Origin: Gammaproteobacteria bacterium
Lineage (GTDB): Bacteria > Pseudomonadota > Gammaproteobacteria > Steroidobacterales > UBA11654
NCBI GenBank assembly: GCA_029941465.1
Contig: JAPYQN010000009.1
Coordinates: 1 to 53,893, forward strand
Reading direction: 5' to 3'
DNA length: 53,893 nt
Part shown: in pieces, positions 9,018-14,303 of the stretch
Layout: every line of letters begins with the position of its first letter
Position numbering within the stretch: the stretch's first letter is position 1
The notes under the pieces: model-generated
The model's input: the letters and a program-made list of their open reading frames with translations, nothing else
What the model was told of the DNA's origin: nothing
Databases searched by the model: none
Translations under genes and position numbers: made by a program

Positions 9018-10166
9018 ATGACCACTAAGCAGAAACATTCCATGCAACCCCAACCGAATCATGATGAATCGGTTAGGCAAGATTTTGTTACTGACCTAAG
9101 GGCTTTTCTGACTGACGAAATATTTACAAAGATTGCTCCATACTACGAAAAAAATGTTCAACCAGAATTTGTAAAAGAAAAAAATAGAAAACCTAAAGAT
9201 AAATCTGAAGTCCGAGATTTAATGCTTAAAGATAAGTCTTATCAAAGTTGGAGTTTGTTACAAAGGTTGAGTCAGCAGATGATGTTTACTTCAGTAATTG
9301 ACACCGTTGAAAGAACACTCAGTGATTTAATAGAACGTTTAAAACAGCACAATAGTTTGGGTACTCTTGAGTTAGATAATGAAGTTAAAATACCAAAATA
9401 TCTGACCGCATATGATATCCATCAGCAACCGGGCGGATACCACACAGAAAAGATTGAAGATGATATTGCTCCGGGTGTGGTCTATGACATTTCACTGCCA
9501 ATATACTCTAGAAATTCTATGGGTGATGAGAATGACTTGCTGTCACAGGCTATTATTGGGCATATACAGAAATATATTAAGCTGCCAAAACCAGAAAGAA
9601 TTCTTGATCTAGGTTGCGCAATTGGAAACTCAACATTACCGTTTGCTAAAATTTATCCAAATGCTGAAATACATGGAATCGATGTAGCATCACCTTGTTT
9701 AAGATATGCTCATGCTAGAGCTAATGCATTAGGAGTAACCGCACATTTTAGTCAACAAAATGCAGAACAAACAAACTTTGAAAATGAAACTTTTGACCTG
9801 ATTACTTCGTGTCTGTTGCTTCATGAAACCTCACATAGCGCTATACCAAAAATTATTAATGAGGCTTATAGGCTATTGAAGCCTGGTGGTTGGATGATGC
9901 ATTTAGATGTTTATCCATTCCATAAGCAAGTTATAGAGCCACTCTATGATTTTCTAAAAGACTGGGAAATTATTAATAACAATGAAAATTTTTCAGGTGC
10001 ATTAAGAAATATGAATCTTCAGCAAATATTTGAAGATGCTGGGTTCAATAAAGACACCATTGAATTCACATCCGCTGCAGCTGTTGCCCAATATACTAAG
10101 GGATACACAGGTGATTTTTATTTAAAATTACCTATATATTTAGCTCAGAAACTAAAAATAGCATGA
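9018..10166 (+). CDS. Class I SAM-dependent methyltransferase with extra N-terminal domain
   Basis: 382 residues. The C-terminal half has the Rossmann methyltransferase signature: ILDLGCAIGNST (motif I, about residues 195-206), an acidic residue in IHGIDVAS, DLITSCLLLHE (motif IV region) and LLKPGGWMMHLDV. The first 175 residues form a separate helical domain ending in YDIHQQPGGYHTE, which I do not recognise as a known substrate domain. The stop overlaps the next start by four bases (ATGA), the tightest kind of translational coupling. The substrate is unknown. Coupling to a coiled-coil protein and a nucleotide-type enzyme hints at a small-molecule or cofactor substrate, but that is inference. 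Confidence 0.85.
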   Translation: MTTKQKHSMQPQPNHDESVRQDFVTDLRAFLTDEIFTKIAPYYEKNVQPEFVKEKNRKPKDKSEVRDLMLKDKSYQSWSLLQRLSQQMMFTSVIDTVERTLSDLIERLKQHNSLGTLELDNEVKIPKYLTAYDIHQQPGGYHTEKIEDDIAPGVVYDISLPIYSRNSMGDENDLLSQAIIGHIQKYIKLPKPERILDLGCAIGNSTLPFAKIYPNAEIHGIDVASPCLRYAHARANALGVTAHFSQQNAEQTNFENETFDLITSCLLLHETSHSAIPKIINEAYRLLKPGGWMMHLDVYPFHKQVIEPLYDFLKDWEIINNNENFSGALRNMNLQQIFEDAGFNKDTIEFTSAAAVAQYTKGYTGDFYLKLPIYLAQKLKIA

Positions 10167-10456
10167 ACGCAAAAATAGAATTACCCCGTATTGCTAAGGG
10201 GAAAAAGCCTATCTACCTCGATGATCGTTCAATAGATAATCTGATGGCAATGATAATGACATTAACCCAAGAAATTTCTGTTTTAAGGGATCGATTGGAC
10301 ACAATAGAGCATCTTTTAGCAGAAAAAAAGACAATTAGTCTTGAAGACATAGACACTTTTGAACCAAGTGATGATTTAGTTGAACAAAGGAAAGAGAGAA
10401 GGCAATTGCTTCTTAAAAGGGTATTATTACCCATTGAAAAGGATCTTGAAAAGTAA
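10163..10456 (+). CDS. Small coiled-coil protein, unknown function
   Basis: 97 residues, charged, with no signal or membrane segment. Residues about 25-52 (LMAMIMTLTQEISVLRDRLDTIEHLL) have a heptad pattern typical of a coiled coil, and the C-terminus is basic and helical. It starts inside the stop of the methyltransferase gene (ATGA overlap) and its TAA shares its last base with the next ATG (10456). The double overlap suggests fixed stoichiometry with its neighbours, so it may be an adaptor or oligomerisation subunit (inference). I recognise no family. Confidence 0.75.
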   Translation: MNAKIELPRIAKGKKPIYLDDRSIDNLMAMIMTLTQEISVLRDRLDTIEHLLAEKKTISLEDIDTFEPSDDLVEQRKERRQLLLKRVLLPIEKDLEK

Positions 10457-11574
10457 TGAATGCAAATGATATTAGATCCATACACGACGGACCTTTCAAG
10501 TTAGTATTTGTTTCTAGTGGTGGTGGCAGCAGTGCAATCTCAGACTTATTAAAAGTCCCTGGAGCCAGCCAAACTATTCTTGAGTCTTATATTCCTTATT
10601 CAAGAGAGTCGATGGATGAATATCTTGGGGTGAAACCAAGTTATTATTGTGGATTGCAAACAACTATAAATATGGCTGTTACTGCTTTCTCAAGGTCAAA
10701 GAAATTAGCCCCTGGGGTAGATCCTTCCCATCTGCTAGGTGTAGCGGTGACGGCAACCTTGTCAACTACCTATGAAAAATTAGGCAGTCATCGTTTTTTT
10801 GTATGTGTCCATGGATTGAATGCTACCCATGTTATTTCATGCTATTTAACCAAAGGAAAACGCACCAGAGAGAATGAAGAGATGCTCGTCACAGAATGCT
10901 TGGAATCTTTAATTGGTATTGCGTGTGGACTTGGTAATGAGTTACCCAAATTAACACAACAAATTCATTATGAGGTTATTGCAGCAAAACCAGAATGGCA
11001 TGCATTAGAAAAAAAAGAAATTACAATACTCAATAGTGATTTAGAACCCAGTAAACTTATTTTTCCAGGGACCTTTAATCCATTGCATGAAGGTCATATA
11101 AAAATACAGGAAATTGCTGAGAAAAAGACCAGCATGCATGCAACATATGAAATATCAATTGGTAATGTTGAAAAGACATTCCTCAGTTATTTTGAGATAC
11201 AAAAAATATTAGATCAGTTTGGGTTAGACGATCGATGGGCATTAACTAATGCCCCCACCTTTGCTGATAAGGCCCGTATTTTTAATGATTCAACTTTTAT
11301 TCTAGGAATTGATACTTTGACTAGGATGTTTGATGAAAAATTTTATGGCAGTAAAAGTCAACTCCTTGAAAGTTTAGAGGAGTTCAATACCTATAATGCT
11401 AATTTTTTAGTTTTTGGTAGGCAAATAGAAGACACCTATAAAACTCTTGATCAGTGCTTAATACCTTCTAACATAATAGATCGTTTTGTAGGTATTTCAG
11501 AATCTGAATTTCGACTTGATATCAGTTCAAGAGAGATAAAAAAATATCAAGAAGAGGCCAAGATCACTGCTTAG
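10456..11574 (+). CDS. CinA-like domain fused to NMNAT-like nucleotidyltransferase
   Basis: 372 residues with two parts. Residues about 10-170 resemble the CinA C-terminal (nicotinamide-nucleotide amidohydrolase) fold: SSGGGSSAISDLLKVPGASQ, YSRESMDEYLGVKP and GVAVTATLST. Residues about 202-365 are a nucleotidylyltransferase: GTFNPLHEGH (205-214) is the nucleotide-binding HxGH motif and DISSREIKKY near the C-terminus matches the ISSxxIR motif of NadD/NMNAT enzymes. From memory, a plant protein family has the same two-part layout and the same NPLHEGH words. The expected chemistry is adenylylation or cytidylylation of a phosphorylated substrate. Whether it acts in NAD salvage or repair is inference. 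It is the last gene of the coupled trio. Confidence 0.75.
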   Translation: MNANDIRSIHDGPFKLVFVSSGGGSSAISDLLKVPGASQTILESYIPYSRESMDEYLGVKPSYYCGLQTTINMAVTAFSRSKKLAPGVDPSHLLGVAVTATLSTTYEKLGSHRFFVCVHGLNATHVISCYLTKGKRTRENEEMLVTECLESLIGIACGLGNELPKLTQQIHYEVIAAKPEWHALEKKEITILNSDLEPSKLIFPGTFNPLHEGHIKIQEIAEKKTSMHATYEISIGNVEKTFLSYFEIQKILDQFGLDDRWALTNAPTFADKARIFNDSTFILGIDTLTRMFDEKFYGSKSQLLESLEEFNTYNANFLVFGRQIEDTYKTLDQCLIPSNIIDRFVGISESEFRLDISSREIKKYQEEAKITA

Positions 11575-13523: not shown

Positions 13524-14303
13524 ATGAGCACAAAAGAACGCCTATCAATCACTAAGGATTGGCTCCCCAGGTATACTGGCATGGAGATTGACAAGTTTGG
13601 TGATTACATTCTACTTACAAACTTTAGTGATTATGTCATGCGATTTTCTGAAATGTTTGATGTTGAGATCAAAGGTTTAAGCAGACCAATGCAGGCAGCT
13701 ACTAATTCTGATGGATTAAGCATTGTCAATTTTGGTATTGGTTCCCCAAATGCAGCCATCATTATGGATTTATTGACAGCAAGAAACCCAAAGGGGGTTT
13801 TATTTTTAGGTAAATGCGGCGGCTTAAAAGCCTCATCGGAGATTGGTAATCTTATCTTACCAATTGCTGCCATCAGAGGAGAAGGAACCAGCAATGATTA
13901 TTACCCACCTGAAATTCCAGCTCTTCCGTCCTTTAAATTACATAAATTTGTTTCAGAGAAAGTCCTAGAGAAGGACTTGGAATATAGAACAGGGGTTATT
14001 TACACCACCAACAGAAGAGTTTGGGAACATGATGAAAATTTTAAAAACAGACTTAAAGAGACCACAGCCATAGCCATTGATATGGAGACAGCTACTATAT
14101 TTATAGTGGGACACTACAATCAAATTGCCAGAGGAGCTCTATTATTAGTCTCTGATAAACCGGTAACGCCAGATGGTATAAAAACTGGCCAATCAGATAA
14201 AAAAGTTACTGAAGAGTGGGTTCAAATACATTTAGATATCGGTATTAGTGCTATGACTGAAATAGGAAAAAGCGGAGAGAAAATAAAACATTTTAGATAT
14301 TAA
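13524..14303 (+). CDS. amn: AMP nucleosidase, short form
   Basis: 259 residues, matching the short AMP nucleosidase that lacks the N-terminal regulatory domain of the E. coli enzyme. It hydrolyses AMP to adenine and ribose 5-phosphate. Recognisable parts are ERLSITKDWLPRYTG near the N-terminus, NFGIGSPNAAI and FLGKCGGLK (phosphorylase-fold ribose and phosphate region), and AIDMETATIF, the Met-Glu of the nucleoside site. GAGG lies about ten bases upstream of the ATG. A hairpin terminator follows at 14318. The protein is cytosolic and monocistronic. Confidence 0.88.
   Translation: MSTKERLSITKDWLPRYTGMEIDKFGDYILLTNFSDYVMRFSEMFDVEIKGLSRPMQAATNSDGLSIVNFGIGSPNAAIIMDLLTARNPKGVLFLGKCGGLKASSEIGNLILPIAAIRGEGTSNDYYPPEIPALPSFKLHKFVSEKVLEKDLEYRTGVIYTTNRRVWEHDENFKNRLKETTAIAIDMETATIFIVGHYNQIARGALLLVSDKPVTPDGIKTGQSDKKVTEEWVQIHLDIGISAMTEIGKSGEKIKHFRY

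Follow-up and report, generated by a model that had tools for sequence, protein, structure and literature searches.

The window analysed here, a stretch of 53,893 nucleotides, is contig C9 of a 1.39 Mb genome that is about 92% complete. It contains three consecutive genes on the forward strand, termed MT, CC and FU, of which the first two overlap by four bases (ATGA) and the last two by one base (TAATG). The open reading frames, both overlaps and the motifs GTFNPLHEGH and ISSRE were all found as claimed in the initial annotation of this DNA. The genes and their features are:

9018..10166, + strand: MT, 382 aa, class I SAM-dependent methyltransferase with a helical N-terminal domain
9060..9347, + strand: helical hairpin of MT, residues 15-110, with helices at 15-55 and 73-110 in the AlphaFold2 model
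9585..9917, + strand: SAM-binding methyltransferase domain of MT, about residues 190-300, assigned by Pfam and Foldseek
10163..10456, + strand: CC, 97 aa, probably mostly helical as judged by eye; the neighbour of MT homologues in other Gammaproteobacteria
10456..11574, + strand: FU, 372 aa, CinA/PncC-like domain fused to an NMNAT/NadD-like nucleotidyltransferase
10456..10950, + strand: CinA/PncC-like domain of FU, about residues 1-165; Ser38 and Tyr48 kept, PncC-site Glu, Thr and Lys replaced
11053..11574, + strand: nucleotidyltransferase domain of FU, about residues 200-372
11068..11097, + strand: GTFNPLHEGH, the HxGH nucleotide-binding motif in the sequence, residues 205-214
11521..11541, + strand: ISSREIK, an ISSTxIR-type motif, residues 356-362, with a final Lys for the usual Arg

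That FU joins a CinA-like domain to a nucleotidyltransferase had been proposed from the sequence, and the proposal was borne out: the C-terminal half passes the Pfam CTP_transf_like model (25.9 bits, cut-off 21), some relatives of FU pass the Pfam CinA model, and the predicted folds agree. The match to the CinA profile held for these relatives (27.7, 26.6 and 23.8 bits) and for the fold, but not for the window protein itself, which scored 19.5 bits against PF02464, below the cut-off of 23.5. The structural model of FU is confident (pLDDT 90.6, pTM 0.87). Foldseek matched its N-terminal half to the CinA structures 2a9s, 6l19 and 4ct8 with a probability of 1.00 (TM up to 0.73 by target, for 2a9s and 6l19), and the best match of its C-terminal half was NadD 5deo (E 1.1e-2, probability 0.99, TM 0.55 by target). 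Profile comparison gave an E value of 2.2e-5 for the N-terminal half with CinA and of 8e-6 for the C-terminal half with NadD, the latter match being confined to the HxGH segment.

Like bacterial NadD and eukaryotic NMNAT, FU has HxGH and ISSTxIR-type motifs as well as the fold of 5deo in its C-terminal half, but it scores only 17.9 bits against the curated NadD model TIGR00482 (cut-off 112.45) and is fused to a CinA-like domain. His211 and His214 are invariant across 39 sequences, and conservation from SAR86 through Chloroflexota extends over the HxGH, GxDT, FGR and ISSxxIR-type positions; the ISSTxIR motif is present near the C-terminus, its last Arg being Lys in the window's genus. Yeast Pof1 (YCL047C) is an NMN adenylyltransferase for which the motifs T/HxxH and SxxxxR were named, in a paper that makes no mention of CinA (PMC13191266). 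Both motifs are found in FU, where the second carries Lys in members of the window's genus, and the likeness to Pof1 is one of motifs only. The plant nucleotidylyl transferase family (At3g27610 / At2g01220) presumably has the same two-domain layout as FU; the literature searched contained nothing functional on these plant proteins.

The usual genes of NAD synthesis were sought in genomes of the window's family and of SAR86. No NadD (TIGR00482) was found over the cut-off in seven genomes of the window's family and eight of SAR86 (G088 and seven genomes reached via their loci), two complete chromosomes among them. For NadE there were only fragments at 20-35 bits, compared with 99 and 252 bits for the controls; these fragments formally pass the low Pfam cut-off, they fall in open reading frames of GuaA and MnmA size, and discounting them is our judgement. 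NadC gave short pieces of 26 bits or less, some of which formally pass the cut-off (controls, 185-195 bits), and neither PncB nor NadV was found in 14 genomes. An inventory of the nucleotidyltransferase superfamily in SAR86A returned three proteins, one CoaD-sized, one RibF-sized and FU, and the lack of any candidate NMNAT independent of FU in this search counts for FU as the NMN adenylyltransferase. A secondary match of 255 aa was considered as a hidden NadD and rejected, since by sequence it reads as a glycerol-3-phosphate cytidylyltransferase-like domain joined to a cupin-like one; such fusions of about 255 aa occur in the window's genus and in some SAR86 (L116:4093-4848 on G000 contig C5, L117:4250-5026).

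With neither NadE nor NadC, NAD must derive from an amidated nucleotide, so that an NMN adenylyltransferase is required. Because the usual NAD genes were sought and not found, FU is probably the NAD-making enzyme of the window bacterium, which like SAR86 is marine, and of SAR86. From the fold, the motifs and the pathway gaps we infer its substrate and activity: FU would be an NMN adenylyltransferase, probably with no second enzyme of this kind in either SAR86 or the window's family, a reading to which we give a probability of roughly 0.6. The C-terminal domain would join NMN and ATP, by means of the HxGH and ISSTxIR motifs, to form NAD+ and pyrophosphate, and probably no other enzyme of these two groups would carry out the step. 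The connection of the fusion with NAD metabolism, suggested when the DNA was first annotated, is thus favoured by the NadD-like fold, the motifs and the missing pathway genes.

In a gammaproteobacterial sample, 25 other genomes had neither a NadD match nor FU, and NadD loss alone therefore does not imply FU; since the sample has only two FU carriers and is a weak statistic, what carries the argument is pathway logic together with the complete genomes. NadD was present in all five of the other FU carriers tested. These other carriers keep NadD, NadE and NadC, so that FU there is not simply a replacement for NadD.

A rival reading is that FU is a nucleotidyltransferase for some other cofactor, a sugar or a lipid head group, with NAD coming from an unrecognised enzyme or from import of NAD+. 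The weak sequence likeness to NadD outside the HxGH segment, the five genomes in which FU stands alongside NadD, the search for an NMN source, which found none, and the lack of a conserved co-oriented neighbour pointing to NAD all speak for such a substrate. Against it, NadD is the best fold match of the C-terminal half, the fold of the CinA-like half has a characterised activity on NMN (PMC3855486), and the superfamily search gave no other NMNAT candidate; we regard another substrate as unlikely.

The NMN source was sought in the window's family and SAR86 through PnuC and nicotinamide riboside (NR) kinase, and none was found by either search. PnuC was rejected as an NR importer because a TPP riboswitch is present at four of the six scanned loci that combine a TonB receptor, PnuC and a kinase, and because the kinase resembles the thiamine kinase ThiK. 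The PnuC-like protein of the window genome and SAR86 is most likely a thiamine transporter. The riboswitch at L142:1871-1970 (G000 contig C20), seen also at L143, L146 and L147, precedes the operon of TonB receptor, PnuC-like protein and ThiK-like kinase, and this thiamine uptake operon of the window's genome and some SAR86 is labelled as NR transport by family models. No NR kinase of NadR type was found in the NadD-less genomes, and weak NR-kinase matches, each about 210 aa long, probably represent thymidylate kinases. Among the K189A genomes, G341 has a PnuC gene adjoining a NadR-C-like NR kinase (L138:538-1661) together with NadD, NadE and a PncC-like gene, and a complete NR salvage route beside FU is plausible there.

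A genome scan for FU gave 76 loci, belonging to the window's clade and, for the remainder, almost entirely to SAR86; the other carriers are Chloroflexota/SAR202 (L080, L082), Pirellulales of Planctomycetota (L079) and K189A-type Pseudomonadales (L083, L087, L088). In the FU tree the window's clade is adjacent to SAR86, with deep branches that are long and uncertain. No co-oriented neighbour of FU is conserved in SAR86, and operon context therefore gives no hint to function. Relatives were also observed in huge uncultured phages. LR745208.1 encodes a full-length FU relative of 25% identity (L161:8932-10083), beside which no NAD gene was recognised by eye, and LR756511.1 encodes the nucleotidyltransferase half alone (L162:8929-9501), flanked by thymidylate synthase-like and DHFR-like genes. 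No FU relatives were found in the viral_contigs scan, on plasmids or in PHROGs.

MT matches Pfam Methyltransf_25 (4.5e-22, residues 195-291), and none of the listed NCBIfam models scores above its cut-off. The N-terminal extension pointed out in the initial annotation shows a helical hairpin in the AlphaFold2 model (pLDDT 85.6), in which two helices of about 40 residues precede the methyltransferase domain. MT is like class I SAM-dependent small-molecule methyltransferases in its SAM-binding domain and differs from them in the added helical N-terminal domain and the adjacent CC partner. Homologues of MT at E<=1e-60 were found in six of 274 sampled gammaproteobacterial genomes, the window genome being one of the six. 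Seven of eight distant MT genes have a CC homologue next to them, on the upstream side in some and the downstream side in others; in two cases the similarity to CC is weak (E about 1e-5 to 1e-9). FU was absent from the distant MT-CC loci fetched from other Gammaproteobacteria. The genes around these loci encode CoA-transferase III, FMN/FAD oxidoreductases, SDR, MmgE/PrpD and transporters, with TonB receptors recognised by eye, and such neighbours suggest that MT and CC act in small-molecule catabolism or modification. MT would then be a small-molecule methyltransferase and CC its small helical partner, which may pack on the helical domain of MT.

Conservation of the trio, which the initial annotation had made a test of its proposal, held in most genomes of the window's genus and failed beyond it. 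MT, CC and FU are contiguous in the window and in G009, G002, G003 (on two contigs), G004, G005 and G008; the four-base overlap of MT and CC is seen again in most congeners, and in several the one-base overlap of CC and FU is replaced by a three-base gap. In G001 and G007, of the same genus, two genes on the opposite strand are inserted between CC and FU; the insert (L003:393-1446 in G007, likewise in G001) consists of a small gene and a gene that is sulfotransferase-like by sequence. G010, of the family's other genus, has FU without adjacent MT or CC, and co-occurrence of the three genes was not seen beyond one genus. FU without MT and CC is the arrangement in the family's second genus, in all SAR86 and in the few Chloroflexota, Planctomycetota and K189A genomes. 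The genes flanking the trio are equally syntenic across the window's genus, and contiguity within the genus is therefore weak evidence for joint function.

The trio is two independent modules that adjoin in one genus, MT with CC, and FU. The earlier proposal that all three genes form one pathway, whose substrate would be a nucleotide or NAD precursor in damaged or modified form, draws on the overlap of the genes in most genomes of the genus. We consider it very improbable, given that MT-CC recurs without FU and FU without MT-CC, that other genes come between the modules in G001 and G007, that MT and CC are not linked to FU in G010, and that the flanking genes are just as syntenic.

There remains the N-terminal half of FU, which has the fold of the PncC/CinA NMN deamidases (PF02464; PMC3855486) but is joined to a nucleotidyltransferase rather than to a COG1058/MocF domain. 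The active site of OiPncC comprises E281, S282, T284, S299, Y309 and K314 (PMC3855486). With the correspondence of residues set by motif and not by structural superposition, FU keeps Ser21, Ser38 and Tyr48; the places of Glu, Thr and Lys are taken by Ser20, Gly23 and Met53, so that three residues of the PncC set are replaced; the PncC sequence ESxTGG reads SSGGGS in FU, and the Lys position is Met, or Leu in other FU proteins. Ser38 and Tyr48 are invariant in the FU alignment. YdeJ and YfaY, two inactive proteins of E. coli, are reported to have mutations at one or more PncC active-site positions (PMC3855486). An active deamidase in this half, with FU converting NMN to NaMN and then to NaAD, would suit two domain types that fit consecutive steps and the invariant Ser38 and Tyr48, but it is hardly credible with the catalytic Glu, Thr and Lys replaced and no NadE found in the window's family and SAR86 to amidate NaAD. 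As key catalytic residues are lost, we infer that the domain is non-catalytic and probably binds NMN or acts as a scaffold.

A broader scenario, which we offer as tentative, is that the de novo, Preiss-Handler and deamidation routes to NAD have disappeared from both SAR86 and the window's family, and that an imported NMN-type precursor is converted to NAD+ by the fused enzyme, its dead deamidase domain sensing or holding NMN. SAR86, which ranks with the most abundant bacteria of the surface ocean, was only recently cultured, in a medium that contained niacin (PMC11582366); neither 'nicotin' nor 'NAD' was found by word search in that paper. In the literature searched, which excluded the SAR86 genome paper PMC3358033, nothing was found on how SAR86 makes NAD, and a prior description is possible. 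If NAD in SAR86 comes only via FU from NMN, by direct adenylylation, the pathway would have no use for niacin, and SAR86 would be obliged to obtain an NMN-type precursor by exchange. Were the precursor indeed imported, exchange of NAD precursors in the ocean would sustain a group that is among the most numerous of marine bacteria.

An AMP nucleosidase gene (NF005500, 381 bits) lies near FU in the window (13524-14303, + strand), and also near FU in G010 and G001.
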